This document shows positions 1 to 18,704 of a DNA stretch of 35,190 bases, piece after piece (position 1 is the stretch's first letter; every line of letters begins with the position of its first letter). Source of the stretch: an uncultured Halieaceae bacterium (GTDB taxonomy: Bacteria > Pseudomonadota > Gammaproteobacteria > Pseudomonadales > Halieaceae); the NCBI GenBank assembly GCA_913048495.1, contig CAJWWA010000004.1, positions 1-35,190 on the forward strand, given 5' to 3'. The notes under the pieces are model-generated. The model was not told the origin of the DNA, searched no databases, and worked only from the letters and a program-made list of their open reading frames with translations. A program made the translations under genes and the position numbers.

Positions 1-641
1 GCCGCCAGTTCGGGCTGTTCGCGGTAGACGTCCTCGACGCTGCGCCACCGTCGCTCCCGCTCGTCGTAGCAGCGGATATCGCCGTGCCCGATGTCGTAGA
101 TCCAGCCGTGGAGTTCGAGAGCATCGCTGGCAATGGCGGCAGCCACCGCAGGATGGGTCATCAGGTGGCGCAGCTGCAGCACCACGTTCTCCTCCGTCAG
201 CTCCGAGAGGTGCTCGCCGCGGAGGCCGCCGTGCCGCGCCCGCACCGTGGCAACCGCTGCCAGCGTGTGCCCCAGCCAGTCACTCGTGTGCGGGAGTTCG
301 CCGAGGTCCTCCGGCGCCATGGCGCCCTTGATGGCGCCGCAGTCCGTGTGACCACAGACCACGACGTGCTTTACCTTCAGCGCAGAAACAGCGTACTCGA
401 TAGCGGCGGTCGTCCCGCCCGCATGGCGCTCGTGCGGCGGCACGATGTTACCCGCATTACGGATGATGAACAGGTCGCCGGGGGCTGCCTGGGTCACCAG
501 GTTGGGGTCGATGCGCGAATCGGAGCAGGTAATGAAGAGAATGCGCGGATTCTGCGCGCTCGAGAGCTCCGTGAACAGCTCCTGCCGCTCCGGGAAGATC
601 TCTGTCTTGAACTTGTATACCCCGGCCAGCAGCTTGCGCAT
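1..641 (-). CDS. beta-carbonic anhydrase, C-terminus truncated by the window edge
   Basis: Reverse-strand reading from ATG at 641: MRKLLAGVYKFKTEIFPERQELFTELSSAQNPRILFITCSDSRIDPNLVTQAAPGDLFIIRNAGNIVPP...HVVVCGHTDCGAIKGAM. Contains the beta-CA zinc motifs CSDSR and HTDCGA. Absent from the ORF track because it runs off the edge. Confidence 0.95.
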   Translation of the reverse strand, partial: MRKLLAGVYKFKTEIFPERQELFTELSSAQNPRILFITCSDSRIDPNLVTQAAPGDLFIIRNAGNIVPPHERHAGGTTAAIEYAVSALKVKHVVVCGHTDCGAIKGAMAPEDLGELPHTSDWLGHTLAAVATVRARHGGLRGEHLSELTEENVVLQLRHLMTHPAVAAAIASDALELHGWIYDIGHGDIRCYDERERRWRSVEDVYREQPELA

Positions 642-688
642 TCCGCCCCCTGAAACCCCGCGGCCACCTGTTGCTCCTTATGGTCGCG

Positions 689-697
689 AGTATAACA
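689..697 (-). promoter_or_regulatory. possible extended -10 promoter (TGTTATACT) of the carbonic anhydrase gene
   Basis: Reverse complement of AGTATAACA gives TG-T-TATACT about 48 nt upstream of the start codon; no convincing -35. Confidence 0.4.
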
Positions 698-843
698 GGG
701 GCGCGGCAGCGGCTGTTCTCTTGCGCTGCCTGCCGGGTTATCCTGCGTGCCGCTTCAGGGGGCGGCCGACATTACGATCCATCATGCAAATCGCTAGAAG
801 CCGTGCCAATGGCGGTCGTGCTGCGCGAGCCGCGGAAAGTCGC

Positions 844-3762
844 ATGCGCTCATCGCGGCGCGCCAGCTGCGCGCTGCTGATCCTGCTCGTCCTGCCGTCC
901 GCCGGCAGCCTCGCGCTGCATCACGAGCGCAGCCCCAGCCAGTTCCTCGTGCGCCAGTACGAACGGGAGCACGGCCTGCCCTCCGAAACCGTCTGGATGG
1001 CGCGCCAGGGGCCCGCGGGCTACCTCTGGCTGGCGACCCGCCGGGGCCTGGTGCGCTTCGACGGCCTCAATTTCACCGTGTTCAACGCCGAGAACCACCC
1101 GGCTTTCGCCAGCAGCGATGTGCGGGTGATCGAGTGGACGACCGACGGGCAGCTGTGGATCGGCACCTACGGTGGCGGCGCCCTGCGCATGAACGGCGAC
1201 CGCTTCACGCCGTTCACCCGCGAGGACGGCCTCGCCAGCGACACCGTCTACGACATTCACGTCGCCGACGACGGCACCGTCTGGTTCGCAACCGGCAGCG
1301 GCGTGAGCCGCTACCGGGACGGCGAGTTCCGGACCCTGGGCGAAGCGGAAGGGCTGGCCACCAACCGGCTGTTCCAGATAGCGGAAGGCGGCGATGGCGT
1401 GCTCTGGTTCAGCAGCCTCACCAGCGGCCTCTCGGTCCTCGACGGGAAAGGCTTCCGGGCCGTCGGCGTTGACGAGGGGCTCGACTCGCCACAGGGGCTG
1501 CTGCTGCACCGCGACCCGGACCTGGGCATCGTTGCCGGCACCCAGCCCGGCGGCCTCTATCGCCTCGGCGACGACGGCGGCATCGACGCGCTCAGCCTCG
1601 GCGAGCCGCTCCCGGTGCAGTCCATGCTGCGGGACGACGAGGGAACGCTCTGGCTGGGCACCTATGGCAGGGGGCTCTGGCGCCAGTGGGCGGACGGTCG
1701 ACGGGAGCGCTTCCCGCTGCCGGGTGCCGGGCTGGTCTTCGACCTGACCGAGGACCGGGACGGCAATCTCTGGGCGTCCACGGTACGCGGCCTGTTCCGC
1801 ATCCGCGACAGCGCCTTCATGCCCTTCGGCGAGGCAGAGGGCGCTTCCGACGCCGTCTTCGTCGTCGCCGTCGACAGCGACGGCAGCGTCCTCGCCGGCG
1901 CTGAAAACGCCGGGCTGTTCCGCATCACTGCGGACGGCCGCAGCAGCGAGCCGTGGCCCATGCTCGCCGGGCAGAGCGTGTCATCGCTGCTGCTACGCGA
2001 CAACGGTGAACTCTGGGTGGGCACCTTCGGCGATGGCCTCAAGCGCTTCGCGGACAGCGCGGGCGGCCGGCTTATCGGTACCGTGGACGGCCTCGCCGGC
2101 GGGCACATCCTGGCGATGGTCGAGCGCGCGGACGGCAGCGTCTGGATCGCCTCCGACGGCGGCGTCGATCGCTGGCAGGATGGCGCAGTCGAACCGGCAC
2201 CGCTGCAGCAGGCTGTGTCCGGGACACTCGTGCGCCATTTCCGGGAAACGCGTGACGGCACGCTCTGGCTGGGAACCAACGACGGGATCCTCGCCTGGGA
2301 CGGGGAATCGGTTCGGCGCTGGAACCGCGACGACGGCCTGGCAGGCAACATCGTCGTCGCCATCCACGAGGACCCGCGGGGCATCCTGTGGATCGGCAGC
2401 CGCGACGGCGGCCTGACCCGTCGCGAGGGCGACAGGCTGTTCGCCTTCGGGGCGGAGCAGGGGCTGCCCCAGCCATCCGTGCTGGCGATTCTCGACGATG
2501 GTGATGGCGGGCTCTGGCTGCCGGGCGGTGAGGGGCTCACCTGGGCGGACCGCGACAGCCTGGATGTCGTGGCCCGGGGCGAGGCCGCACAGGCGACCGC
2601 CCGGTTGCTGCGCGAGAATGACGGGCTGCGCTCGGCGCAGTTCCAGGGCGGCTTCCAGCCCGCGGGCGCCGCGGGCCCGGATGGGCGGCTCTGGCTGCCG
2701 ACCAACGGCGGCGTCGTCGGCTTCGACCCGGACGCCGTGCTCGCGCCCGCGCCCCGGCTGCAGAGCTATGTCGAGGCCGTGCGGGTCAACGGCGAACCGG
2801 TGGCGCTCAGCCGGCCGCTCACCCTGCCGGCCACGCTGAACAGTCTCGAGATCGATTATACCGCGCCCCAGCTCTCCAACGCCGAGAACGTGCGCTTCCG
2901 TTACCGGGTCGGGGATGACGGGGAATGGCAGGACGCCGGCACCCGGCGGACGGCCTACTTCACGTCGATGCCGGCGGGCGAGCGGGTATTCACCGTGCAG
3001 GCGAAGACCGACGCCGGCCCCTTCCCCGACCCCAATGGCGACAGCGCGCGGCTGCTCCTAAACCGTACACCGCACTGGTACGAAACGCCCTGGGCCCCCG
3101 TCGGCGTCACGCTGCTGCTGGTGCTGATGGCCGGCCTCGGCTACCGGCTCCTCGACCGGCGGGCCCGGGGCCGGGAGCAGCGCCTCGAACAGCTGGTTAA
3201 CCGCCGCACCGAGGAACTGCAGGCGGCGCTCGCCAAGGTAGAGGAGATCTCGCGTATCGACAGCCTCACCGGCGTCGCCAACCGGCGCTACTTCGAGGAG
3301 CGGCTGGCGGCGACCTGGAAGATGGCGGCACGGGCGGTACGGCCGGTGAGCGTGATCATGCTCGACATCGACCGCTTCAAGCAATTCAACGACAGCCTCG
3401 GCCACCAGGCGGGGGATGAATGCCTGCGCCAGATCGCCGAGGGCCTCCAGGGCGGCCTGCTGCGCGACAACGACCTGGTGGCCCGCTACGGCGGCGAGGA
3501 GTTCGTGATCCTCCTTTATGATGCCGACGCTGACGGTGCCGCTCGCGTGGCGCGGCGGATCATCGAGCAGGTGGACGCCCTGAAACTGCGCCACCCCGAG
3601 AGCGACGTCTCTCCCTACGTGACCGTCAGCCTCGGTTGCGCCACGGCCCGCGCCGGCGAGCTGGAAGACCCTTACGTCCTGGTGGACCGGGCCGACCGGG
3701 CGCTCTACGACGCCAAACGCGCAGGCCGCAGCCAACTCAAGGTGTTCGCGACCTCGGCCTGA
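844..3762 (+). CDS. Periplasmic two-component-regulator-propeller sensor with Y_Y_Y-like domain, TM helix and GGDEF diguanylate cyclase
   Basis: Repeated propeller motifs (DGTLWLGTNDGILAW, DGQLWIGTYGGGALR etc.), TM near PWAPVGVTLLLVLMAGLGYRLL, then SLTGVANRRYF...RDNDLVARYGGEEFVILLY (GGEEF plus RxxD I-site). Start placed at 844 (signal peptide MRSSRRASCALLILLVLPSAGSLA); 784 is an alternative. The ORF-track start at 445 would overlap the carbonic anhydrase gene. Confidence 0.9.
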   Translation: MRSSRRASCALLILLVLPSAGSLALHHERSPSQFLVRQYEREHGLPSETVWMARQGPAGYLWLATRRGLVRFDGLNFTVFNAENHPAFASSDVRVIEWTTDGQLWIGTYGGGALRMNGDRFTPFTREDGLASDTVYDIHVADDGTVWFATGSGVSRYRDGEFRTLGEAEGLATNRLFQIAEGGDGVLWFSSLTSGLSVLDGKGFRAVGVDEGLDSPQGLLLHRDPDLGIVAGTQPGGLYRLGDDGGIDALSLGEPLPVQSMLRDDEGTLWLGTYGRGLWRQWADGRRERFPLPGAGLVFDLTEDRDGNLWASTVRGLFRIRDSAFMPFGEAEGASDAVFVVAVDSDGSVLAGAENAGLFRITADGRSSEPWPMLAGQSVSSLLLRDNGELWVGTFGDGLKRFADSAGGRLIGTVDGLAGGHILAMVERADGSVWIASDGGVDRWQDGAVEPAPLQQAVSGTLVRHFRETRDGTLWLGTNDGILAWDGESVRRWNRDDGLAGNIVVAIHEDPRGILWIGSRDGGLTRREGDRLFAFGAEQGLPQPSVLAILDDGDGGLWLPGGEGLTWADRDSLDVVARGEAAQATARLLRENDGLRSAQFQGGFQPAGAAGPDGRLWLPTNGGVVGFDPDAVLAPAPRLQSYVEAVRVNGEPVALSRPLTLPATLNSLEIDYTAPQLSNAENVRFRYRVGDDGEWQDAGTRRTAYFTSMPAGERVFTVQAKTDAGPFPDPNGDSARLLLNRTPHWYETPWAPVGVTLLLVLMAGLGYRLLDRRARGREQRLEQLVNRRTEELQAALAKVEEISRIDSLTGVANRRYFEERLAATWKMAARAVRPVSVIMLDIDRFKQFNDSLGHQAGDECLRQIAEGLQGGLLRDNDLVARYGGEEFVILLYDADADGAARVARRIIEQVDALKLRHPESDVSPYVTVSLGCATARAGELEDPYVLVDRADRALYDAKRAGRSQLKVFATSA

Positions 3763-3789: not shown

Positions 3790-4803
3790 TCAGCGACGGG
3801 CGATGGCCGTGCTGTCGACGGTATAGCGGCGCAGCGTCTGCCGCGCCTCGACGACAGCTGCAGCGAGGGTCCGCTCGCCACTCGCCAGCGCATCGGCGTG
3901 GCCGAGAAAGTCCGCGTACATCGCCTCCGGTTCGCCCTCGAGCGTCAGGCCGATCTCGCCCTGCTCACGCTCCAGGCGCGTCCACAGCTCGCGCACCGCT
4001 GCCCAGTAGTCTGCGGTTTCACGCCAGTAGTCTTCTGCAATTGCCACCGCAAAGTCGCCGTTGTGTTGGTAGCGATTGACGCCGATTTCCCGCACCAGCG
4101 GCGCCGGACCCGCGGCGCCGACGCGCAGCTTGGTGTTGTCCTGCTCGTGCACCCAGCCCTCCGGCGTGAGCGCGTGACGGTTCACCGCGCGGATCGCATC
4201 GTAGTCGTCGCGCTTGGTCGCGTCGCGGCGCGGCAGCGGGCGGAGGGCCGGTTCGGAGGTCCAGGCGGCCGTGCCGCGGTCGTGGCGCCAGTCACCGAGA
4301 GCGGCATAGCGGGGGCTGTCATCGACCTGGTAAACGAACTGCGCCCAGCGGCCATCGGCTTCCCCGGGGTCGAGATCGCGGCGGCGCCAGCGGTTGGCGC
4401 CCAGGTAGTCGAAGACGTAAGCGGGCTCGTAGACCCACTTCTGCCGCCAGTGCTTGACCGGCAGCTGCTTGCCATCGGCACCGACGACCAGGATGTGCTG
4501 CAGCTCGATCAGCCCGGGTTCGTCGCGGATGACCCGCACGACTTCAAAGGCCCCGGAGTGATAGGGCTCCGCGGGCGTGTAGGCTGCGTCGAAGCTCACC
4601 GTCTCTTCGAAGTCGAAGGTCACGGCGTAGTCCCCGGCCATGGCGAGAATCGCCGCGCGGTCCGCAGCAGGCGGCGCCGCAGTGATAGCAGCGCTGCCGG
4701 GACCGCCGCTCGCGCAGCCGCCGAGGGTAGTGAACAGCAGCGTTGCCAGCAGCCCGGCCGCCAGCTTCAGGGGACACCGGGTCCCTGTGGTGGTTTGCAT
4801 CAT
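3790..4803 (-). CDS. DUF6607-like lipoprotein
   Basis: 337 aa with signal peptide and lipobox (LLFTTLGGCASGG), then DRAAILAMAGDYAVTFDFEETVSF...YHSGAFEVVRVIRDEPGLIELQHILVVG...PVKHWRQKWVYEP; resembles my recollection of DUF6607. Confidence 0.7.
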   Translation of the reverse strand: MMQTTTGTRCPLKLAAGLLATLLFTTLGGCASGGPGSAAITAAPPAADRAAILAMAGDYAVTFDFEETVSFDAAYTPAEPYHSGAFEVVRVIRDEPGLIELQHILVVGADGKQLPVKHWRQKWVYEPAYVFDYLGANRWRRRDLDPGEADGRWAQFVYQVDDSPRYAALGDWRHDRGTAAWTSEPALRPLPRRDATKRDDYDAIRAVNRHALTPEGWVHEQDNTKLRVGAAGPAPLVREIGVNRYQHNGDFAVAIAEDYWRETADYWAAVRELWTRLEREQGEIGLTLEGEPEAMYADFLGHADALASGERTLAAAVVEARQTLRRYTVDSTAIARR

Positions 4804-5055: not shown

Positions 5056-5475
5056 ATGGACAGCTTCGCGAAGAAGTATCTCGTCGGCCTCGTCGCCGTG
5101 GTCATCATCGCCACCGGGTATTGGTACCTGAACCGGGACACCCGGGTTGGGGACATCAACGCCATGCTCGCGGCGGACGCGGAGCTCGCCGGGTACCCCT
5201 ACCCCTTCCGCGTAAAGAGCCTTGCCAACGGCGTCGCGATCATGGGCAGCCCGCGCTCCGCGGAAGTGCCGGTCATGCAGTTCCTGCGCACCGCCTTCCC
5301 GGCCCTGCGCAACACCCCGGTCGATGACCCGGCCATGATGGCCGCCCAGGACACGCTGGTGGACAAGCAGTCGCGGGCCGCGAAGCTGGTCGAGGCCGAA
5401 GAGGATGTCCGCGCCGTGCGCTGGGAACTCGACGAGCGCTGGTACAACGAGCACGGGGTGTTCCTGAACCGCTGA
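5056..5475 (+). CDS. small membrane-anchored hypothetical protein
   Basis: 139 aa; N-terminal TM helix (YLVGLVAVVIIATGYWYL); SD-like AGGGAGGA upstream of ATG. Confidence 0.75.
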   Translation: MDSFAKKYLVGLVAVVIIATGYWYLNRDTRVGDINAMLAADAELAGYPYPFRVKSLANGVAIMGSPRSAEVPVMQFLRTAFPALRNTPVDDPAMMAAQDTLVDKQSRAAKLVEAEEDVRAVRWELDERWYNEHGVFLNR

Positions 5476-5533: not shown

Positions 5534-6487
5534 TCAGCTGCCCGCAAAGGCCTCCATGGCCCAGGCCACGCGCTCGGCAGGTTCCGGCAGGCGCCGGTCG
5601 CCGAGGGCCTCGACGCGGCGCAGCCGCGGCAGCAGGCCACAGCCGTTGGCGATCTGGATCGCGAGGCCCGGCCGGGCATTGAGCTCAAGGAGCAGCGGGC
5701 CCTGCTGCCGGTCCAGCACCAGGTCCACCCCCAGGTAGCCGAGGCCGGTCATGTCGTGGCAGCGTGCTGCCAGCACCAGCAGTTCGCGCCAGCCCGGGAC
5801 GCGGATGGCGTCCAGCGGACGCCCGGTGTCCGGGTGCAGGGTCAGCGGCTGGCCGAACTGCACGGCGCGCAGGCAGCGGCCGCTGTCCAGCGCGAGGCCC
5901 ACGCCCACCGCGCCCTGGTGCAGGTTGGCCTTGCCGTCCGAGTCGTGGGTGGACAGGCGCAGCATGGCCATGACCGGGTAGCCCCGGAAGACGACCACCC
6001 GGATGTCCGGCACCCCCTCGAAGGAGTAACCGCTGAAGCAGTCGTCGGCACTGATCAGGTCCTCCACCAGCACCGCGTCCGGGTTGCCGCCGAGGGAGTA
6101 GAGCCCCGCGAGCGTGTTGGACAGGTGTCGCTGCAGGTCGGCGAGGCCGACCCGGACCCCGGAGGCCTTGACCCAGGCGTCCTCGTCCCGGCGCTGGATC
6201 ACCCAGATACCCTTGCCCCCCGACCCCTTGGCGGGCTTCATGGCGAAGCCCTCGAGGGCCGCCAGCCGGCTGCCGACGCGCTGTACCTGGTGCTGCGCTC
6301 GGAGCACCAGGCGCAGGGAGGGCGTTGGCACGCCGTACTCCTCCGCCAGGAGCTTGGTGCGCAGCTTGTCGTCTACCAGCGGGAAGCGGGAGCGCTCATT
6401 GTAGCGCTGGATGAAGGCGAGGTTGCGCGCGTTCATGCCGAGCATGCCGTAGCGCTCGAGACGCTGCGGCGTGACCCAGCGCCTCAC
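5534..6487 (-). CDS. rloC: alpha-L-glutamate ligase-like (RimK-related ATP-grasp) protein, RloC type
   Basis: MLGMNARNLAFIQRYNERSRFPLVDDKLRTKLLAEEYGVPTPSL...EGFAMKPAKGSGGKGIWVI...GYLGVDLVLDRQQGPLLLELNARPGLAIQIAN (ATP-grasp signatures). GTG start at 6487 overlaps the upstream stop (GTGA); the 591-aa track ORF is an upstream extension into another gene. Confidence 0.85.
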   Translation of the reverse strand: MRRWVTPQRLERYGMLGMNARNLAFIQRYNERSRFPLVDDKLRTKLLAEEYGVPTPSLRLVLRAQHQVQRVGSRLAALEGFAMKPAKGSGGKGIWVIQRRDEDAWVKASGVRVGLADLQRHLSNTLAGLYSLGGNPDAVLVEDLISADDCFSGYSFEGVPDIRVVVFRGYPVMAMLRLSTHDSDGKANLHQGAVGVGLALDSGRCLRAVQFGQPLTLHPDTGRPLDAIRVPGWRELLVLAARCHDMTGLGYLGVDLVLDRQQGPLLLELNARPGLAIQIANGCGLLPRLRRVEALGDRRLPEPAERVAWAMEAFAGS

Positions 6488-8001
6488 CGCCAATCCTCCT
6501 CGATGGCGTGGAAGCGGCGCAACTCCGACAGCTTGTAGCCCGTGTACTGACCCATGGCGAGGATCGCCGCGAGCAGCACGAGGTTCAGCTCCGGGAAGTT
6601 GAAGGTGAGGTGCTGTACGAGGGGCCAGCGCATGAGTGCGTAGGCCGCTATCGCCACGACGAGACTGCCGGTGCCCTGGATGAGAACCTCGCGCACGCCC
6701 TCCTCCTCCCAGAGAATGCTCATGCGCTCGATGGTCCAGGCGATGATGATCATCGGGAAGAAGGTGATGATCATGCCGGTGCTGTAGCCGAGCTGGTAGC
6801 CGAGGATACTCAGCGCCGAGATGATGAAGATCACCAGCACGATGAGCGTCGCGATACGGGCGACCAGCAGCAGGTTCAGCCGCGACAGGTAGCCGCGCAT
6901 CATGAGGCCGAGGGCGACGACGGAAATGAAGCTCGCCAGTCCCGGCAGCAGGGAGGTCTGCAGGAACGCCAGGGCAATGAGAATGGGCATGAAAGTGCCT
7001 GCGGTGCGCACCCCCACGAGGACCCGCATGAACACCACGACCATGGCGCCCAGCGGCAGCAGCAGGAGCATCTTGAACATGCCCTGCTCCTCGATGGGCA
7101 GGCTGTGCAGCCCCACCTTGTAGAAGGCGCTGTCGCCGGCCGCCGCCCGGGCCAGCGTTTCCGCCGGCACGGACTGGCGCAGCATGGAGAAGTTCACGCG
7201 GGACTGGCGGGCGCCGCTCACGTCGATGAGCGAGCGGCCCTTGCGGTGCCAGAGGAGCAGGTCTTCCGGCACGCCGGCGGCCCCGGTCTGGGGGTCGATC
7301 AGCGTCCACTCTCCGGCGTGGAAGACCTCCACCATGGGCTTCAGGTCCTGGCGCCGGCGCGCATCCTCCAGCTGCAGCGCGAGCACCTGCCGCGCCGGGA
7401 CGTCGGCATCATTGAGCAGCTTGTTGAGGAGCGCGGCGCGGGACTCGGCCTGGTTCAGCAGGAGCGCGGCATTCTGGTCGCCCTGGCGGGTCGCCATCAG
7501 CTTGACCAGCTCCCGCGCCAGGCTCAGCGGGTCGCTGCTCGTCTCACCGGCCCGGGCGAGGAGTTCCGCTGCGGCGGTGCCCTGCACCTCGCTCCAGAAC
7601 ACCGGCTCCGCCCTCGGCAAGCGCGGCGGCGGCGCCGCGGGCGCGCGCGGGCGCGGCAGGAACTGCGCCGAATAATAGAGAGACTGCGGCCCGCTGGCCT
7701 CGCGCCGGGTCCACTCGGCGCGCCGGTCTCCCCCGTCCTCCACGATGGAGAAACCGAAGCCCGGCGAGGCGGCCTGCTCCTGGGTCACGGAGAACTGCGG
7801 CAGGTCCTCGGGAACGGAGAGGCTGACCGAGACCGGGCCACCGAGGGCGACGAGGTCCACCCGCGCTTCCACCTGCCACACGGAGCGCTCCTGCCCGGGC
7901 AGGAAAGGCGTGCCCGTTTCGAGGAAGCGCAGGATGGCGACAAGAATGCCGGAGGCGGCAAGCAGCGCCACCGTGGCGAAGAAGGTGGCGCGGGGGTTCA
8001 C
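6484..8001 (-). CDS. rloB: inactive transglutaminase fused to 7 transmembrane helices, RloB type
   Basis: 505 aa: N-terminal TM, transglutaminase-like segment (VPARQVLALQLEDARRRQDLKPMVEVFHAGEWTLIDPQTG) lacking a recognisable catalytic Cys/His, followed by multiple TM helices. Located between ATP-grasp and retropepsin-like genes as expected for this system. Confidence 0.85.
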   Translation of the reverse strand: MNPRATFFATVALLAASGILVAILRFLETGTPFLPGQERSVWQVEARVDLVALGGPVSVSLSVPEDLPQFSVTQEQAASPGFGFSIVEDGGDRRAEWTRREASGPQSLYYSAQFLPRPRAPAAPPPRLPRAEPVFWSEVQGTAAAELLARAGETSSDPLSLARELVKLMATRQGDQNAALLLNQAESRAALLNKLLNDADVPARQVLALQLEDARRRQDLKPMVEVFHAGEWTLIDPQTGAAGVPEDLLLWHRKGRSLIDVSGARQSRVNFSMLRQSVPAETLARAAAGDSAFYKVGLHSLPIEEQGMFKMLLLLPLGAMVVVFMRVLVGVRTAGTFMPILIALAFLQTSLLPGLASFISVVALGLMMRGYLSRLNLLLVARIATLIVLVIFIISALSILGYQLGYSTGMIITFFPMIIIAWTIERMSILWEEEGVREVLIQGTGSLVVAIAAYALMRWPLVQHLTFNFPELNLVLLAAILAMGQYTGYKLSELRRFHAIEEDWR

Positions 8002-8795
8002 TGTGCGGGCGGCTCGGGCGCGCGGTAGGGTGCGATATTGGACTGGCCCACGTCGACGACCATCAGGTCCTTGAGAATGTTGCGGCCGACGAGCATCTGG
8101 AAGTCCAGGTGGCTGCGGTCGCTGAGCGTGAACTCGGCCATCTGCCGAACCTCGCCTAGGACAATGCCGAGCTCGATGACCGCTCGCCGCTCCGCCTCCT
8201 CGGACGTGGACTGGAGAATACGCACGACGCGGGCCACCGGTCGCTCCAGGGTCAGGGGCTCACCGGTCTCGGGATGGACGATATCGAAGCGGACCCATTC
8301 ATCACCATCGCGCTCGAACTCGCGGATGTTGCGCGCGTCGAGGGAGGCCGTCTCGGCACCGGTATCGATGCGGGCCGGGAGTGCCAGCTGAAGGTCTTCA
8401 ACCCAGACGTCCTCACGGCGGCCGACCAGCTGCTTGCCCTCCAGGCCGTCGGCGTTCTCCGCGGGTTCGCAAGCGGACGCCGGCACCAGCGCCGGCGTCG
8501 TCTGCTCGGCCGCGACGGACTTCTCCATCGCTTCGAGCATCGCGGGCACACCGGCGAGGCTCGCCTGCAGGGTCGCGACATTGCCGGCCAGCGCCTGCTG
8601 TTCCTCGCGTGCCGCCTCCAGGCCCGTTGAAAGTCCGGCCAGTTCCTCCGCCAGGCGATCGATGCGCTCGCTCACGCCCTGCCGTTCCGGTTCCACCGGC
8701 GGCAGTTGCGCACAGGCCGTCGTCAGTGTCAGCAGGACCACCACCCAGGGCAGCCGGGAACGCGCCGGCTGCTTCCCGGAGTGCGATGGCCTCAT
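7998..8795 (-). CDS. rloA: retropepsin-like aspartic protease lipoprotein ('ATP-dependent zinc protease' family PF05618-like), RloA type
   Basis: MRPSHSGKQPARSRLPWVVVLLTLTTACAQ (lipobox), coiled-coil stretch, then GKQLVGRREDVWVEDLQLALPARIDTGAETASLDARNI (DTGA active-site motif)...LVGRNILKDLMVVDV. Start corrected from 8921 to 8795. Confidence 0.82.
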   Translation of the reverse strand: MRPSHSGKQPARSRLPWVVVLLTLTTACAQLPPVEPERQGVSERIDRLAEELAGLSTGLEAAREEQQALAGNVATLQASLAGVPAMLEAMEKSVAAEQTTPALVPASACEPAENADGLEGKQLVGRREDVWVEDLQLALPARIDTGAETASLDARNIREFERDGDEWVRFDIVHPETGEPLTLERPVARVVRILQSTSEEAERRAVIELGIVLGEVRQMAEFTLSDRSHLDFQMLVGRNILKDLMVVDVGQSNIAPYRAPEPPAQ

Positions 8796-8826
8796 GCTGT
8801 TCCAAAGGATCAGGCGCAAAACAGAC

Positions 8827-10347
8827 TCAGGCGACCGCCTTGACCCGAGTGCCCTCGAGCTTCTTGGCGTCGTACATGGCTTCATCTGCGCGCGCCAGGG
8901 CGGTCTCCATGGTGTCGTCACCGTCGAGTTGCGTCACCCCGCAGGAGATAGAAACGTCGAGCGGACGGCCGTTGTCATTGAAACCGGCATGCGCGACTTC
9001 CTGGCAGACGCTGCGGGCGAAGATCTCCGCCCCGGAGAGCGGCGTATCCGGCAGCAGCAGCAGGAACTCGTCGCCCCCGTATCGGCATACGATATCGCTC
9101 GCGCGGGAGCGCTCGTGAAGGATGTCGGCGACCTTCATGAGCACGAGATCTCCGGCCGCATGGCCGTAGGTATCGTTGATTTCCTTGAACTTGTTGCAAT
9201 CGACGAACACGATCGACAGCGGCGCCGCGGCCCGCTTCCAGCGCGCATAGAGCTCGGGCGAGCGCTCCTCGTACCCGGCCCGGTTGTAAACCCCCGTGAG
9301 CGGGTCCTTCAGCGCGAGGTCCGCCTTGTCGCGGATCTCGTTGCGCAGGCTGTCCGCCTCCTGCTCCAGCGTTTCCACCTGCTGGGAAAGTTCCTTCACC
9401 CTTGCCTGGGCCGCCTCGTACTGCTCCCGCTCCTCGGCGACGTGCCGGGCGAGGCGCTCGGTGATGCGCAGCAACGAGCCGTGTACCGCCTCCTGGTCGA
9501 CTCCGTGGGTCACGGCCTCGGACAGTCCGCTGACATCGGCGCCGACATCGACTTCCAGGGCCTCCGACCGCTCCAGGGAACGCCGTCCCTCGTCCGCCAC
9601 GGAAGTGACGGCGTCTTCAAAGGACTCGAGCCGCTCGCGCAGGCTGCCGAGGAAACTGGATGCGTGCGCGCGCTCCTGCCGAATGCGATCGTCGATGCGA
9701 TCGATCTCCCGGGTGACCTCCTTGAGGAGGGTCTCCGCCTGCTCCAGCGCCTGCAGCCCCTCGAGGCGCTGCCGGAGCTCGCCCCCGCGGGACGGCGAGC
9801 CGTTGAGTACGTCGATGTGATCGACAAGGCGCGTGAGCAGCTCGACGAAGAGCATCACCGAGCGGTCCCGCTGCCCTTCCTCGCGGTCGGTCCGCCGGCG
9901 CCCGAAGAGCCCGCGGGCCCCGCTCTCGCCGCGGCCGCGGGCCGCGACCTCGATCAGCGCCTCCGCCGAGGCCTTCAGCAGCGAGCTCAGGGCGGCCTGG
10001 CGCTCCAGCGCACTCTGGCCTGCGGCGATCCGGCGTACGAGGCCGTCGAAGTGCTGCTGGTCCTCGGAGCGTACCGGCATGCGCTTGACGAGCTGGCTGA
10101 GCCCGGAGACATCCAGGGCGCCCGGCATGGCATCGCTGCTATCGACACTGACGCCCGTCGCCGAAAGCACATAGTGGGCCAGTTCCTCGGAGGCTTCACC
10201 GAGCCGGTTGCCGTCAGCCCCCTCACGCACGAGACCCCGGATCTTGCCCAGCACCGCATCCACGTCGGCGTCTACGCCCTCGGCCATGCGCAGCAGCCTG
10301 AGGGTCAATCGCGCAAGCGCCTCGTCCCGATCCATGGTTGATGTCAT
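8827..10347 (-). CDS. GGDEF diguanylate cyclase with long helical/coiled-coil N-terminus
   Basis: DPLTGVYNRAGYEERSPELY...RASDIVCRYGGDEFLLLLPD: GGDEF with RxxD I-site. N-terminal about 330 aa predominantly helical with no TM. Confidence 0.92.
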   Translation of the reverse strand: MTSTMDRDEALARLTLRLLRMAEGVDADVDAVLGKIRGLVREGADGNRLGEASEELAHYVLSATGVSVDSSDAMPGALDVSGLSQLVKRMPVRSEDQQHFDGLVRRIAAGQSALERQAALSSLLKASAEALIEVAARGRGESGARGLFGRRRTDREEGQRDRSVMLFVELLTRLVDHIDVLNGSPSRGGELRQRLEGLQALEQAETLLKEVTREIDRIDDRIRQERAHASSFLGSLRERLESFEDAVTSVADEGRRSLERSEALEVDVGADVSGLSEAVTHGVDQEAVHGSLLRITERLARHVAEEREQYEAAQARVKELSQQVETLEQEADSLRNEIRDKADLALKDPLTGVYNRAGYEERSPELYARWKRAAAPLSIVFVDCNKFKEINDTYGHAAGDLVLMKVADILHERSRASDIVCRYGGDEFLLLLPDTPLSGAEIFARSVCQEVAHAGFNDNGRPLDVSISCGVTQLDGDDTMETALARADEAMYDAKKLEGTRVKAVA

Positions 10348-10360
10348 CCCTTGTTCATGT

Positions 10361-10391
10361 GCTGCGGTCGCAGCCGGCGCCCCGGCGCCGG
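10361..10391. terminator. two adjacent perfect inverted repeats between fhlB-like and DGC genes
   Basis: GCTGCG-GT-CGCAGC (10361-10374) and CCGGCGCC-CC-GGCGCCGG (10374-10391) in a 53-bp intergenic gap. Confidence 0.4.
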
Positions 10392-10400
10392 ACGCTGGCG

Positions 10401-10682
10401 TCAGGCGCGCTCGGACAGCGCCATTTCCAGTCGGTAGACGAACGCCAACACCTCCGCCACGGCAACATACAATGTTTCCGGTATTTCGTCACCCAGCGGG
10501 ATTTCGCAGAGCAGCGTCGCGAGCCGCTCATCCTCGTGCAGGGGCACGCCGTGCGCTTCGGCAATGGCGCGGATGCGCTGCGCGACATCACCCTCCCCAC
10601 TCGCGACCACCCGCGGGGCGCCGACACCCGCGTAGACCAGTGCCGCGGACCGGGGCGGTACGCTGTGGCGGTCGTCGTTCAC
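10401..10682 (-). CDS. FhlB-type protein: free-standing FlhB cytoplasmic (C-terminal) domain
   Basis: PPRSAALVYAGVGAPRVVASGEGDVAQRIRAIAEAHGVPLHEDERLATLLCEIPLGDEIPETLYVAVAEVLAFVYRL aligns by eye to the FlhB segment after NPTH in this window. Confidence 0.88.
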   Translation of the reverse strand: MNDDRHSVPPRSAALVYAGVGAPRVVASGEGDVAQRIRAIAEAHGVPLHEDERLATLLCEIPLGDEIPETLYVAVAEVLAFVYRLEMALSERA

Positions 10683-11767
10683 GCCTTCCAGCCCGTCACG
10701 GCGCCGCCGATGCTCTGCTCCCCGGCTGCGCCCTGCTCCACCCCCAGCCGCACCTCGAGACCCTCGAGGGCGAGACCCCGCGCCTTCATCGCATCGCCGA
10801 GCTGATGCAGGCTGCCGCCCAGCAGGGCACCGCTGTCCGGCTTATCCACCTCAATGCTCACCCGCGCCTGCGCCGGCCCGGCGTGCACGTGTACAACCAG
10901 CGGGCCCAGCCTAGGCAGATCCAAGGACAGTACCGCGTGCCAGCGACGGGTGTGCTCGTCGCCGTCGGGCCGTTCTCGCGCCTCCTCCTCGTTGATGGAC
11001 AGGCGGGCGCTGTGCATACCCTCGCCGAGGAAGAAAGGCAGATCGATGCGCCAGCTGCGCCCCGCCCCCGCATCCCCGGGCAGGGAGGCGAGCTGGTTGA
11101 GCTGCAGGGCACCGAGCATGGCCTCGAGTTCGCGTGCGAAGGCGCCCGTCCCCCGAGCAGAGGACGCTTCCTCGCCCGCTCCGCCAGCGCCGCGCAGTAC
11201 CAGGAGCAGGCGCTGCACGAGGACCTTGAGATCGCGCTCCGCCGACTGGCCGCCGCTCGCGAGCAGGCGAGCCTCGGAAAACGTACCGGATTGCTCGACG
11301 GCCCGCTTCAGGTTCTTCGCCTCGCCCAGCTGCGAGAGCCGGGGCAGCAGGTCCAGCAGCTGGCCGATGAGCGCCTGGGCATTGCCCGGGAGCCGCGCGA
11401 TGCCCTCGGCACCCAGGGCCTGCAGGGCGGAAACGAAGGAGGGTGCGCCCGGCGTGCTTGCGGCGCGAACCGCGCCGCCCGTTTCCACGGCCTGTCCCGC
11501 CGGCGGCGGCACGGCGCGCAGCACCCGCAGCACCGGCACGGGTTCGAGTTGCTTCACCTCGAGCAGCAGCCGCGTACCCGGCTGCACGGGCACATCGGTG
11601 GCGGCAGTCAACTGCTGCCCGCCCACGCGCAGCACCAGTTCACCGCTCGGCCGCTGCGAGGCAACCAGTGCATTGAGCACCTGGCCGACCTGCCAGTTGC
11701 GCAGCCAGATGCCGAAGTTCTTCTGGTCGACCCGGGTTGCAGTGAGCGCCAGCTGGACGTCTTCCAC
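10679..11767 (-). CDS. FliK-like flagellar hook-length control family protein (second copy)
   Basis: C-terminal LSLDLPRLGPLVVHVHAGPAQARVSIEVDKPDSGALLGGSLHQLGDAMKARGLALEGLEVRLG resembles the FliK C-terminal domain. ATG/stop overlap with the FhlB-like gene. Confidence 0.75.
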   Translation of the reverse strand: MEDVQLALTATRVDQKNFGIWLRNWQVGQVLNALVASQRPSGELVLRVGGQQLTAATDVPVQPGTRLLLEVKQLEPVPVLRVLRAVPPPAGQAVETGGAVRAASTPGAPSFVSALQALGAEGIARLPGNAQALIGQLLDLLPRLSQLGEAKNLKRAVEQSGTFSEARLLASGGQSAERDLKVLVQRLLLVLRGAGGAGEEASSARGTGAFARELEAMLGALQLNQLASLPGDAGAGRSWRIDLPFFLGEGMHSARLSINEEEARERPDGDEHTRRWHAVLSLDLPRLGPLVVHVHAGPAQARVSIEVDKPDSGALLGGSLHQLGDAMKARGLALEGLEVRLGVEQGAAGEQSIGGAVTGWKA

Positions 11768-11890: not shown

Positions 11891-12655
11891 ATGGATCTGG
11901 CCACGCTCCTCGGCCTGGTGGGCGCCATCGGCGTCGTCATGGCGGCGATTCTCACCGGCGGCTCTGCCATCGTCTTCTTCAATATCCCCTCGATTCTCAT
12001 CGTGCTCTGGGGCACGGTGCTCGTGGTCATGGTCAAGTTCTCACTGGCGCAGTTCTTCGGCGCCTTCCGCGTTGCCGCGAGAGCCTTCGTCTTCCGCCTC
12101 GATGATCCCGAGGCGCTCATCGCGCAGATCGTCGAGCTGTCCAACATCGCGCGGAAAGAGGGCATGCTGGCGCTCGAGAACCAGGAGATCGACAACGAGT
12201 TTCTCGACGACGGCATCAAGATGCTCATCGACGGCAACAGCCGGGAGGTCGTCAGTACGGTCATGCACAAGGACCTGCAGCAGACCATCGAACGGCACAA
12301 CTGGGGCATGAAAGTCTTCAGCGCGACCGGCGACGTCGCGCCGGCCATGGGCATGATCGGTACCCTGATCGGCCTGGTGCAGATGCTGTCCTCCATGGAC
12401 GACCCCAAGGCGATCGGGCCGGCGATGGCCGTCGCGCTCCTCACGACGCTCTACGGGGCAATGCTCGCCAACATGGTGGCGCTGCCCATCGCCGACAAGC
12501 TGAAGCTGCGCAAGAGCGAGGAGGGACGCATCAAGGCCATGTGCATCGACGGCGTGCTCGCCATCCAGGAGGGCCAGAACCCGCGCATCGTCGAGTCCAT
12601 GCTCAAGGCCTATCTCGAGCCGAAGAAGCGCAACAACGGTGACGGCGAGGAATGA
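11891..12655 (+). CDS. pomA: flagellar motor stator protein, PomA/MotA family
   Basis: MDLATLLGLVGAIGVVMAAILTGGSAIVFFNIPSILIVLWGTVLVVM...SATGDVAPAMGMIGTLIGLVQMLSSMDDPKAIGPAMAVALLTTLYGAMLANMVALPIADKL. Confidence 0.93.
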   Translation: MDLATLLGLVGAIGVVMAAILTGGSAIVFFNIPSILIVLWGTVLVVMVKFSLAQFFGAFRVAARAFVFRLDDPEALIAQIVELSNIARKEGMLALENQEIDNEFLDDGIKMLIDGNSREVVSTVMHKDLQQTIERHNWGMKVFSATGDVAPAMGMIGTLIGLVQMLSSMDDPKAIGPAMAVALLTTLYGAMLANMVALPIADKLKLRKSEEGRIKAMCIDGVLAIQEGQNPRIVESMLKAYLEPKKRNNGDGEE

Positions 12656-13575
12656 TCGACTTCGAGGACCAGGAAGAGGAGCAGCAGGGCGCGCCGGCCT
12701 GGATGGCGACCTTTGCCGACCTCATGTCCCTGCTCATGTGTTTCTTCGTTCTCCTTCTCTCCTTCTCGGAGATGGATGTCGAGAAGTACAAGCAGATTGC
12801 CGGCTCCATGAAGCTGGCCTTCGGGGTCCAGAACCGGGTCAAGGTCGACGACATCCCCAAGGGAACCAGCGTGATCGCCCGGGAGTTCAGCCCCGGTAAG
12901 CCGGAGCCGACGATCATGGACACCATCAACCAGGTCACGCAGCAGAATACGGAGAACTCCCTGCAAGTCGGCAACCCCGATGCGCCGCAGCTCGACGAGG
13001 AGCGAACGCGGGAGCTGCTCGAGCAGAAGGTGGAAGCGCTCCTCGAAGAGACGAAGGAAGACGCGGAGGAGCTGCGTGAGATCCTCGCGCAGGAAGTACA
13101 GACCGGGAAGGTCGACATCGAGACCGAAGGGCGGTCCATCATCGTCAGGATCCGCGAGAACGGCTCCTTCCCCTCCGGCTCGGCGACCCTGAACGCCGAC
13201 TTCCTGCCGGTCATGGACCGCCTGCGGGACGCGCTCGTGGAGATTCCGGGCACGATCGCCGTCGAGGGCCACACGGACGATGTACCGATCAGCGGCGGCC
13301 GCTTCCGCTCGAACTGGGATCTCTCGGCGAGCCGGGCACTGTCCGTGACCCACGAGCTGCTAAAGAGCGGCGAGCTGTCCAATGACCGCCTCATGGTCGT
13401 CGGCTACGCCGAGACCGAGCCTTTCACGAACAACGAGAGCCCCGAGGGACGCGCGATGAACCGGCGGGTGGAACTGGTGATCAGGCAGTCGCTGGAGGAC
13501 AGCCGCCAGGATGACCTGGATGTCATCCGCGAGGCCAACTCGGACGTCGTCGACGTGCTGGAGCTGGATCGATGA
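12652..13575 (+). CDS. pomB: flagellar motor stator protein, PomB/MotB family (OmpA C-terminus)
   Basis: APAWMATFADLMSLLMCFFVLLLSFSEMDVEKYKQIAGSMKLAFGVQN is typical of Na+-type PomB; OmpA-like VEGHTDDVPISGGRFRSNWDLSASRAL. ATGA overlap with pomA. Confidence 0.93.
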   Translation: MIDFEDQEEEQQGAPAWMATFADLMSLLMCFFVLLLSFSEMDVEKYKQIAGSMKLAFGVQNRVKVDDIPKGTSVIAREFSPGKPEPTIMDTINQVTQQNTENSLQVGNPDAPQLDEERTRELLEQKVEALLEETKEDAEELREILAQEVQTGKVDIETEGRSIIVRIRENGSFPSGSATLNADFLPVMDRLRDALVEIPGTIAVEGHTDDVPISGGRFRSNWDLSASRALSVTHELLKSGELSNDRLMVVGYAETEPFTNNESPEGRAMNRRVELVIRQSLEDSRQDDLDVIREANSDVVDVLELDR

Positions 13576-14156
13576 GCGGGGGCGCTGACCGGAGCCAGGG
13601 CGAGCGCCGCCAGTTCTATCGCATCGCGGACCGGATCAAGCTGCGCTACGAGACCATCGAAGCGGGCTCGGAAGGTACCGGGCAGGCAGGCGGGGCCATC
13701 GGCCTGAGTACAGGGCAGCTGCTGGGCGAACTCGACGACGAGCTCGCGGAATGCATCAACCTGCTCGGGCGTGAAGACCCCCTGGCCGCGCGTGCGCTGG
13801 GCCTGCTGAACCGCAAGGTATCCCTGCTCGCCACCCTGAGCCTCTCCCGGGACGGGGAGGAAGCCGCCAGCTACAAGGAAATGCTGGTCAGCCTGAGCGG
13901 CTGCGGCCTTGCCTTCGAGGCCGGCGAGCAGCTGCCGCCGGGCACGGCCCTGAAGCTCTGGCTGATCCTGCAACCCTCGCAGCTGGAGGTGAGCATCACC
14001 GGCCGGGTGGTCGATGCGGCGCCTGCCGGCCCCCCCGGGGAGTCACGCTTCTGGACGCGGGTAGACTTCGATGACGAGGCCTGGGCTCGCGAGGAGCTCA
14101 TCCGCCACGTGGTGCAGAAGCAGGGCCTGCTGGTCGCGGAGCGCTCGGAGCACTAA
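13572..14156 (+). CDS. PilZ-domain protein (possible tetrameric/atypical PilZ type with internal helical insert)
   Basis: RRQFYRIADRIKLRYE (RxxxR) at the N-terminus; MLVSLSGCGLAFEAGEQLPPGTALKLWLIL (degenerate [D/N]xSxxG strand) about 95 residues later. ATGA overlap with pomB. Confidence 0.75.
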   Translation: MSGGADRSQGERRQFYRIADRIKLRYETIEAGSEGTGQAGGAIGLSTGQLLGELDDELAECINLLGREDPLAARALGLLNRKVSLLATLSLSRDGEEAASYKEMLVSLSGCGLAFEAGEQLPPGTALKLWLILQPSQLEVSITGRVVDAAPAGPPGESRFWTRVDFDDEAWAREELIRHVVQKQGLLVAERSEH

Positions 14157-14384: not shown

Positions 14385-15245
14385 TCACCCTGCGGCGCGA
14401 TTCCGCCCCGCCGCGAGCATGATGCCCGGCAGGCGCTCCCCGGAGGCCGCGGATGACATGACCACCAGGACGACGCGACGGTTCCGCGCCCTGCCCTCCG
14501 GCGTGTCATTGCCTGCGATGGGCCGGTGCTCACCGTAGCCGGTGGCGGAGAGGCGCTCCGGGGCGATGCCGTTCTCCTCGAACAGCCGGACCACCGTCGC
14601 CGCCCGCGCCGCGGACAGCTCCCAGTTCGAGGGGAAGCGCCCGTTCCTGATCGGGACATTGTCTGTAAAACCCTCGACGTTGACCAGGTTGGGCACATCG
14701 CGCAGCACGCTCGCAAAATTCTCGAGCACCGGCACGGCATCGGAGAGCAGCACCCGGCTCCCCGAGGCGAAGAGCAGCTGCGCCTTGATCTCGATCTCGA
14801 GCCAGTAGTCGTTGCGCTCGACCTTGATGAGTTCCTCGTCGATGAAATCGGACACGCGGTTCTCGACCGCCCCGGCAAGGCGATCGATCTCGCCCCGTGA
14901 CTCGGCGGCGGCGTCACCGGGCTCTGCCCTAGACAGCCCCCGGTTCAGAAGCTCGGGCTTGAGCGGAATCATCGCCTGCGAGGAGCCGGTATCGGGCGCG
15001 CCGGCGGACCAGGCGTCGGGCATCTCCACCCCGCCGGAACTCTCCCGCTTGAGCGCCAGCAGCGGCGTGTTCAGGGCGCGGACGATGGAATCGGAGAGCA
15101 CACGGTAGCTGCCCTCCCGCGCCGTGGAAATCGAGTACATGACCACGAAGAAGGCGAACAGGAGCGTGATGAAGTCGGCATAGGAGACCAGCCAGCGCTC
15201 GTGGTTGTCGCTGTAGTCGAGCTGCCGGCGGCGGCGCCCCTTCAC
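14385..15245 (-). CDS. motD: flagellar motor protein MotD (MotB family)
   Basis: NHERWLVSYADFITLLFAFFVVMYSISTAREGSYR (stator TM with conserved Asp) and OmpA-like VEGFTDNVPIRNGRFPSNWELSAARAATVV...GYGEHRPIAGNDTPEGRARNRRV. Confidence 0.92.
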   Translation of the reverse strand: MKGRRRRQLDYSDNHERWLVSYADFITLLFAFFVVMYSISTAREGSYRVLSDSIVRALNTPLLALKRESSGGVEMPDAWSAGAPDTGSSQAMIPLKPELLNRGLSRAEPGDAAAESRGEIDRLAGAVENRVSDFIDEELIKVERNDYWLEIEIKAQLLFASGSRVLLSDAVPVLENFASVLRDVPNLVNVEGFTDNVPIRNGRFPSNWELSAARAATVVRLFEENGIAPERLSATGYGEHRPIAGNDTPEGRARNRRVVLVVMSSAASGERLPGIMLAAGRNRAAG

Positions 15246-16015
15246 CCCAGATAGCCCTCGAGCTTGCTCTGAATCGCGCGCGGGTTCTCGCCCTCGGCGA
15301 TCATGATGACGCCGTCCAGCATCATTTCCTGGTACTGCAGCTGTTCACCGTAGAGCGCCTTGAGCTTGTTGGCGACAGGCAGGAACAGGAGATTGGCGAA
15401 GCCGACACCGTAGATGGTTGCCACGAACGCCACCGCGATGCCCGCTCCGAGGGCAGAGGGATCGGACAGGTTTCTCATGACGTGGATCAGCCCGATGACC
15501 GCGCCGAGGATGCCCACCGTCGGCGAGTACCCCCCCATGGACTCGAACACGCGCGCGCCGCGCTCCTCGCGGGCGAGCTTGCTGTCGATCTCCACTTCCA
15601 TGATGGCGCGGATCTCGTCGGGCTCGACGCCGTCCACGAGGAGGGTCAGGCCCTTGCGGAGGAAGGGGTCGGCCACCCCCTGTGCCTGCTTCTCGAGGGA
15701 AAGGAGCCCGTCGCGGCGCACGCGCCGGCTCCACTCGAGCACGTCGTTGATCAGGGGCTGCCGGTCGAAGCGCGGCGCGCGCAGCACCCACTTGAGCCGG
15801 CGCATGGCGAAGAGGAAATCCCCGAGGGGCGTCTGCACCAGCACCGCGCCGAGTGTGCCGCCGACGACGATGACGAAGGCGGTAAGCTGCAGGAGGCTGG
15901 TGATGCGCCCGCCCTCCAGCATGTTGCCGCCGACGATGGCACCGACCGACAGCGTAACGCCGATGAGCGTGAGGTAGTCGAAGGCCGACCCGGCCGGTTT
16001 GCCCTTGCGCGCCAT
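15242..16015 (-). CDS. motC: flagellar motor protein MotC (MotA family)
   Basis: FDYLTLIGVTLSVGAIVGGNMLEGG...FESMGGYSPTVGILGAVIGLIHVMRNLSDPSALGAGIAVAFVATIYGVGFANLLFLPVANKLK. Confidence 0.92.
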   Translation of the reverse strand: MARKGKPAGSAFDYLTLIGVTLSVGAIVGGNMLEGGRITSLLQLTAFVIVVGGTLGAVLVQTPLGDFLFAMRRLKWVLRAPRFDRQPLINDVLEWSRRVRRDGLLSLEKQAQGVADPFLRKGLTLLVDGVEPDEIRAIMEVEIDSKLAREERGARVFESMGGYSPTVGILGAVIGLIHVMRNLSDPSALGAGIAVAFVATIYGVGFANLLFLPVANKLKALYGEQLQYQEMMLDGVIMIAEGENPRAIQSKLEGYLG

Positions 16016-17597: not shown

Positions 17598-18704
17598 TCA
17601 GCTCGCCACGGCCCCGGGCAGGGTGCTCCGACGCGACCGCGCATCTGTCAGGGCCATGGCCACCCGGACCAGTTCCCCCGCCTTTGCCGGCTCGATATCG
17701 TCCGGCACACGCTGGCCGTCGCAGGTCAGCAGCGCCGGCAGTTCCGTGCGGACGAGCGCCTCCAGGACGCCGCCCAGGCTGGTCGCTTCATCCATCTTCG
17801 TGATGATAGCACCCGCCAGCTGCTGTCTTCCAAAGGCGAGTACCACTTCCTTCGTCTGCGCGGCCTGGGCCGCCGCCGAGAGCACCAGGCAGAGGGTCAC
17901 CGGCGCTATCCGGCCAGCCAGCATCTCGCACTGGTCCAGCAGGCGCCGGTCCCGCTGGCCCATGCCGGCGGTGTCGATGAAGACCCGCCGGTCGCGGAAG
18001 CCCGCCAGGGCCTCGTCGAGCGCCTCGCGGGTGGTGGCGCTGACGTGGGGGATGCCGAGCAGGCGGGCGAAAGTGGCGAGCTGCTCATCCGCGCCGATGC
18101 GGTAGGCGTCCGCGGTGACCAGCGCCACGCTGTCGCGGCCGTGACGCAGCGCGGACAGGCCGGCCAGCTTGGCGACCGTCGTCGACTTGCCGACCCCGGT
18201 CACCCCGACGCAGGCCAGCGCCTCGCCGGGCTCGATCGCCGGTGGCCGCGCCGTGCGGATCCGGTCGGCGAGCACCTGCATGGCAATCCGCCACTGGGCA
18301 TCGAGCCCCCCGCGCTGCGGGACCGCGTCGAGCAGGCTCCCGCTGATGCCCCGGGACAGCCCGAGCCGGGCCAGGCGCTGGCCCACGGCGGCACGCACCG
18401 GCGGCACGCCCGCGCTGTCCTTCCAGCTGCGACCCTTGAGCTGCTGTTCGAGCACGCTGCGCAGCTCCACCAGCTCGTCCTGAAGGCGCTGCATGGTGAG
18501 TTCCCTCGCCGGGTCGGCCGCGACCCGCGGCCCGGCCCCGCCAAGCGCCTCGATCTGCTCCTCTCCGAACTCCAGCGCCGCGACCAGTTCCACGCCCTCT
18601 GCCGAGCGGCGGGAGGAGAGGATGACCGCCTCGGGCCCCAGCGCCTCCCGGACCTGGGCCATGGCTGCGCGGCTGTTCTTGCCTCTGAAACGCCTGATAT
18701 CCAC
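17598..18704 (-). CDS. flhF: flagellar SRP-like GTPase FlhF
   Basis: MDIRRFRGKNSRAAMAQVREALGPEAVILSSRR...GVTGVGKSTTVAKLAGL...VALVTADAYRIGADEQLATFARLLGIP. GTG start overlaps the flhA stop (TAGTG). Confidence 0.96.
   Translation of the reverse strand: MDIRRFRGKNSRAAMAQVREALGPEAVILSSRRSAEGVELVAALEFGEEQIEALGGAGPRVAADPARELTMQRLQDELVELRSVLEQQLKGRSWKDSAGVPPVRAAVGQRLARLGLSRGISGSLLDAVPQRGGLDAQWRIAMQVLADRIRTARPPAIEPGEALACVGVTGVGKSTTVAKLAGLSALRHGRDSVALVTADAYRIGADEQLATFARLLGIPHVSATTREALDEALAGFRDRRVFIDTAGMGQRDRRLLDQCEMLAGRIAPVTLCLVLSAAAQAAQTKEVVLAFGRQQLAGAIITKMDEATSLGGVLEALVRTELPALLTCDGQRVPDDIEPAKAGELVRVAMALTDARSRRSTLPGAVAS

Follow-up and report, generated by a model that had tools for sequence, protein, structure and literature searches.

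A conserved fliK2-fhlB-diguanylate cyclase gene trio of Halieaceae and Porticoccaceae that adjoins the rloABC genes in one assembly

Introduction

The flagellar gene cluster of an uncultured Halieaceae bacterium (contig CAJWWA010000004.1; the 35,190-nt stretch analyzed here, to which all coordinates refer, is called the window) has at its edge a block of six genes, all co-directional on the minus strand (11767-5534), in the order fliK2, fhlB, DGC, rloA, rloB and rloC; DGC stands for the gene of a soluble diguanylate cyclase (Table 1). A comparison of gene neighborhoods suggests that this block is probably composed of two functional modules, a flagellar fliK2-fhlB-DGC trio and the known rloABC genes, which meet at a lineage-specific junction (8796-8826). 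An earlier note on this DNA had described six consecutive genes with overlaps or gaps below 55 bp; the coordinates agree, with 4-bp overlaps at three junctions (fliK2/fhlB, rloA/rloB and rloB/rloC) and intergenic gaps of 53 bp (fhlB-DGC) and 31 bp (DGC-rloA). The gene identities that it proposed are likewise supported by Pfam and NCBIfam profile matches, which we judged against the gathering scores or cut-offs of these collections.

The fliK2-fhlB-DGC trio is conserved in two families

We searched 118 related genomes with the N-terminal 330 residues of the DGC as the query; our genome collections were sampled at one genome per species, and many of the genomes are drafts. Orthologues were recovered from 14 genomes representing six genera of Halieaceae (the window's own counted), and each of the 14 genes is positioned directly 3' of fliK2-fhlB. 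Widening the search to 140 genomes of the family returned the same 14 genomes. Seven further orthologues with an identical trio order were present in Porticoccaceae; four came from Porticoccaceae-type genomes found in an order-wide search and three from metagenome-assembled genomes (MAGs) found in a scan of named genomes. The fhlB-DGC adjacency is hence conserved in 21/21 orthologues from at least eight genera and two families, and the link between the DGC and the flagellar genes that the earlier note had drawn is upheld. These proteins are mostly 31-56% identical; they are not wholly independent, since the DGC of one Porticoccaceae MAG is nearly identical to that of one of the four order-wide genomes. 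In a phylogenetic tree with long branches outside the trio clade, the 21 DGCs form a single clade (support 99/98; 98% of the bootstrap trees) apart from the order-wide coil-DGCs, indicating that they arose once.

In all trio loci for which the flank was read, the motA-motB-pilZ genes are oriented divergently from fliK2, and the start codon of fliK2 together with GAAGA/GAGGA is retained in most relatives. Stand-alone fhlB genes are widespread in other genomes of the order, and no GGDEF gene follows directly after fhlB in those that were read. A fixed fliK2-fhlB-DGC association was not found in the open-licence PMC literature, nor was a paper there that joins at least three of fhlB, fliK, diguanylate cyclase and ATP-grasp. 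While FliK, FhlB and DGCs are each of known kinds, the trio seems to be undescribed.

Some features of the trio loci are restricted to particular genera. Four genomes of genus g14 (L020, L023, L075, L076) possess a second coil-type DGC (GGEEF) further downstream of the trio DGC. A sigma-28-like box (TAAAG-N15-GCCGCTA, at most one mismatch) is present 5' of fliK2 in g14 and g2 (L020, L021, L023, L075, L076), in 5/10 intervals versus 0.02 expected in simple shuffles; none was found upstream of fliK2 in the window or in g27, and the box was not used for interpretation. An element that resembles TGTATACT and faces motA is seen repeatedly in both g14 and g27.

The rloABC genes have different neighbors in other genomes

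A study from 2025 gave the rloABC operon its name in Pseudomonas aeruginosa and examined it by genetics (PMC12239564). The RloA peptidases oppose an activity dependent on RloB and RloC, as the rloA triple mutant is rescued when rloB or rloC is lost, and a role of rlo in hypo-osmotic tolerance, morphology and biofilm formation is known from this species; c-di-GMP and diguanylate cyclases are unmentioned in the text of that report (PMC12239564). The window shares with P. aeruginosa three protein families encoded in the same order: a secreted retropepsin-like peptidase, an inactive transglutaminase with seven transmembrane (7TM) helices and a RimK-like ATP-grasp protein. It differs in that rloA trails a flagellar DGC by 31 bp, and in that the narrow NCBIfam cut-offs for RloA and RloB are missed, although the RloA1-3 families are among the best matches of RloA. 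RloA matches PF05618 and carries a DTGA motif; its N-terminus, which on reading by eye is hydrophobic and ends in LTTAC, suggests an exported protein, putatively a lipoprotein. The six-gene block had been put forward as the best candidate of the window for an under-described system, a description that no longer suits its already published rlo part (PMC12239564) and that the trio appears to merit.

An rloB gene is present in 74 of the 118 related genomes. We surveyed 53 rlo loci other than that of the window, calling neighboring genes by simple ORF rules that failed in some loci. The adjacent and co-directional arrangement rloA-rloB-rloC was intact in 53/53 of them, and none (0/53) had an orthologue of the DGC beside it. 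In the trio genomes other than that of the window, rlo is located on another contig; in genome G036, which consists of one contig and is 99% complete, the trio is present and rloB was not found, so that the DGC would not need rlo. The other sampled species of the window's genus (G001) carries rloABC with RloB and RloC proteins that are 92-93% identical and with the same downstream neighbors. Upstream of rloA, this genome has an NADH:flavin-oxidoreductase-like gene followed by a photolyase-like gene (names read from the sequence), and neither FlhA nor any FlhB/FhlB was found in it. Seven further rlo-bearing genomes are without FlhA, and rlo would therefore not require a flagellum. Collectively, the missing DGC in the 53 loci, the other upstream gene of G001, the genomes without FlhA and the trio of G036 without rloB argue for the independence of rlo and the DGC. 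The notion of a single DGC-rloABC system, for which the earlier note had named missing adjacency in related genomes as counter-evidence, is thus abandoned: the adjacency is absent from 53 other loci, and the upstream gene differs even within the genus.

The N-terminal part of RloA has diverged between the two species of the genus (8500-8795, minus strand, versus L018:11900-12175), whereas RloB and RloC are more than 90% identical; this pattern points to a rearrangement near the 5' end of rloA. A second, distant 7TM_transglut protein of about 630 amino acids is encoded elsewhere in the genome of the window (L034; G000:C188:3815-4417) and in several other Halieaceae; no relative of rloA or rloC was seen beside it.

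Properties and possible function of the trio proteins

FliK2 carries the C-terminal domain of FliK, and FhlB consists only of the FlhB C-domain, to which it aligns just after the NPTH motif; it is 49% identical over 72 amino acids to the corresponding domain of the window's full-length FlhB. In contrast to FlhB, it stands alone, lacks a membrane domain and the NPTH autocleavage motif, and is encoded together with a second FliK, followed by a DGC. We presume that it is akin to the FlhX-type proteins.

The DGC of the window reads RASD...GGDEF, with the I-site (RxxD) and the A-site intact, and is on this basis predicted to be of an active diguanylate cyclase type. Among the relatives compared, the trio DGCs read R..D...GGDEF, while nearly all other coil-DGCs read GGEEF. 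The N-terminus of the window DGC scored 25.5 bits against DGCcoil (PF20975), just under the gathering score of 26.7. An AlphaFold model shows it to be all-helical at low confidence (mean pLDDT 70, pTM 0.38), a quality insufficient for comparing folds, and a search of solved structures with the DGC returned relatives for the GGDEF part and none for the N-terminal part. The class-wide relatives, which we take to be DgcP itself, are GGEEF coil-DGCs that begin with a WKxKY segment, and 0/11 of their loci read adjoin fhlB. Trio DGCs share with such DgcP-like proteins (DGCcoil, PF20975) a soluble nature and a long helical N-terminus; they differ by forming their own clade, by reading GGDEF instead of GGEEF, by the missing WKxKY start and by their location in a flagellar cluster. 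Polar localization through FimV is a further trait of the DgcP/DGCcoil family. DgcP of P. aeruginosa is active at the cell pole and, when overproduced, lowers swimming (PMC7033161).

FliK2 and FhlB, the latter resembling a ready-cleaved FlhB C-domain, may together serve as accessory proteins when export switches from hook to filament. The soluble DGC would be produced together with them and would be controlled, via its helical N-terminus, by the state of flagellar assembly or export; the neighboring PilZ protein would then read the cyclic di-GMP (c-di-GMP) made by the DGC and tune the motAB stator. We put this signaling mechanism of the trio forward tentatively. A yet more speculative extension makes the trio a dedicated device coupling the export-specificity switch of the flagellum to c-di-GMP synthesis. 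In it, FhlB/FliK2, or else the export gate, would be sensed by the DGC, and a completed hook or a stall in export would be signaled to the PilZ protein encoded with the adjacent motAB genes. Coupling of this kind, between c-di-GMP and the assembly or motor of the flagellum, is also represented by the FDBR of Vibrio cholerae (PMC7098655) and by PilZ proteins such as MotL (PMC8203827); the portions of these two reports drawn on here describe no operon with a FliK-FhlB pair for either of them.

Alternatively, the DGC could be a housekeeping c-di-GMP enzyme that hitch-hikes in a flagellar operon, unlinked to FliK2 and FhlB, with its position kept only by a shared timing of transcription. Such a role would fit its closest class-wide relatives, which are coil-DGCs in other contexts, the presence of fliK2-fhlB without the DGC in other genera, and the sigma-28-like box 5' of fliK2 in two genera, which would suffice for co-expression; it is harder to reconcile with an adjacency maintained in all orthologues despite their divergence and a changed N-terminus, and with the absence of the DGC wherever fhlB is absent. 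We consider hitch-hiking a possible, if doubtful, account.

One operon or two modules

Several points weigh against the division into a flagellar trio and a separate rlo module. Genomes that lack the DGC (L039-L041) can likewise carry the fliK2-fhlB pair and the PilZ protein, and from this distribution the DGC is an add-on to fliK2-fhlB. The gap between the DGC and rloA comprises just 31 bp and holds no terminator-like site, three other genomes (L162, L127, L160) have c-di-GMP enzymes non-orthologous to the DGC as immediate neighbors of rlo, and the DGC-rloA junction is known from one assembly, in which an error is possible, though very improbable.

Because no terminator-like site separates the two modules, they may be co-transcribed in the window; co-transcription of the DGC with rloABC is plausible in this species and could matter there, but under the two-module reading any co-transcription of the trio with rlo is incidental. 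The earlier note had suggested that hairpins at 10361-10391 could divide the block into two operons. The hairpin near these positions is G+C-rich and without a T-run, and a terminator scan found no site at 10361-10391 and fewer terminator-like sites than in shuffled sequences; hence, the sequence itself gives no split there. By comparison with relatives, the split of the block is placed at the DGC-rloA gap instead.

One of the c-di-GMP enzymes beside rlo, a GGDEF-EAL protein unrelated to the window DGC, is encoded on the same strand 78 bp upstream of rloA (L162:1353-3392; G060). Three such cases compare with about 0.7 expected in about 106 flanking slots, a figure derived from 25 GGDEF matches across about 3.5 Mb; noted only post hoc, this is a weak hint. 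A recurrent enrichment of GGDEF/EAL genes beside rlo was considered and rejected, three unrelated cases in that many slots being too weak. A fourth candidate (L141) was discarded, being a sigma-54 activator whose GGDEF match is below threshold.

If all six genes formed one operon, c-di-GMP made by the DGC might regulate RloC and thereby tie motility to envelope modification. There is a precedent for this: c-di-GMP binds to RimK and stimulates it, and in some pseudomonads the gene of an EAL phosphodiesterase, rimA, is part of the rim operon (PMC4741518). RloC is RimK-like, and RimA-RimB-RimK likewise combines an ATP-grasp ligase and a retropepsin-like protease with a c-di-GMP enzyme; the Rim system differs, however, in being cytoplasmic, in modifying the ribosomal protein RpsF, and in that its c-di-GMP gene encodes a phosphodiesterase and is a true operon member (PMC4741518). 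The tie between c-di-GMP and an envelope peptide-modification cassette that the earlier note envisaged thus has support by analogy, but the adjacency on which it was built is not conserved. The short gap without a terminator-like site and the three unrelated enzymes beside rlo would suit a six-gene operon; given the absence of the DGC from the other rlo loci, the different upstream neighbor within the genus, rlo genes in genomes without FlhA and a trio without rlo in G036, we judge it improbable. That the junction is an artefact fusing two contigs, as the 424 contigs of this genome and the end of homology to G001 in the 5' part of rloA might suggest, is least probable of all: the genes on either side are complete, the rloA reading frame is intact and has a plausible signal sequence, and the non-coding gap is short.

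With two modules as the preferred reading, a periplasmic retropepsin-like peptidase encoded by rloA would oppose the activity of RloB and RloC and affect the envelope and osmotic tolerance independently of the flagellum.

Genes surrounding the block

Two stator gene pairs are positioned back to back in the window, a motCD-type pair (14385-16015, minus strand) and a motAB-type pair (11891-13575, plus strand), and the PilZ gene belongs to the motAB-type set. The PilZ protein has kept the RxxxR motif and reads SLSGCG where several relatives read NLSGCG. A two-component-propeller GGDEF protein is encoded near rlo both in the window and in G001 of the same genus; a gene of like architecture is convergent beside rloC in G004 (L160).

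Table 1. Genes of the six-gene block and its surroundings in the window.
Feature	Position	Strand	Description
fliK2	10679..11767	-	362 aa, GTG start; second FliK-type hook-length/export-switch protein; PF02120 (Flg_hook) 47.5 bits, residues 270-346
fhlB	10401..10682	-	93 aa; stand-alone FlhB cytoplasmic C-domain; PF01312 (Bac_export_2) profile positions 264-335
DGC	8827..10347	-	506 aa; predicted soluble, helical N-terminus and GGDEF; PF00990 (GGDEF) 138 bits
rloA	7998..8795	-	Secreted (putative lipoprotein) retropepsin-like peptidase, DTGA motif; PF05618 121.7 bits
rloB	6484..8001	-	Inactive transglutaminase joined to a 7TM domain; PF14400 167.9 bits, PF14402 340.8 bits, both far above the cut-offs
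rloC	5534..6487	-	RimK-like ATP-grasp ligase; TIGR02291 413.7 bits (cut-off 314.2); PF14397
motA/pomA-type stator gene	11891..12655	+	PF01618; divergent from fliK2
motB/pomB-type stator gene	12652..13575	+	PF13677 and PF00691
PilZ-domain protein	13572..14156	+	Candidate c-di-GMP reader; PF07238 29.6 bits (cut-off 22.5)
motCD-type stator pair	15242-16015 and 14385-15245	-	Flagellar cluster
flhA	18704-20839	-	Flagellar cluster
flhB, full-length	20811-21974	-	Flagellar cluster
Gene without Pfam match	5056-5475		Beyond rloC
DUF6607 protein	3790-4803		Beyond rloC
Two-component-propeller GGDEF protein	445-3762	+	Beyond rloC

Implications

Our analysis corrects a tempting false link, that of c-di-GMP to rloABC, and puts a conserved one in its place, that of the DGC with fliK2-fhlB. 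The conversion of flagellar assembly state into c-di-GMP is still being worked out in several bacteria; a DGC so firmly tied to a FliK-FhlB pair across two families would give simple genetic access to it by way of export switching and c-di-GMP output.

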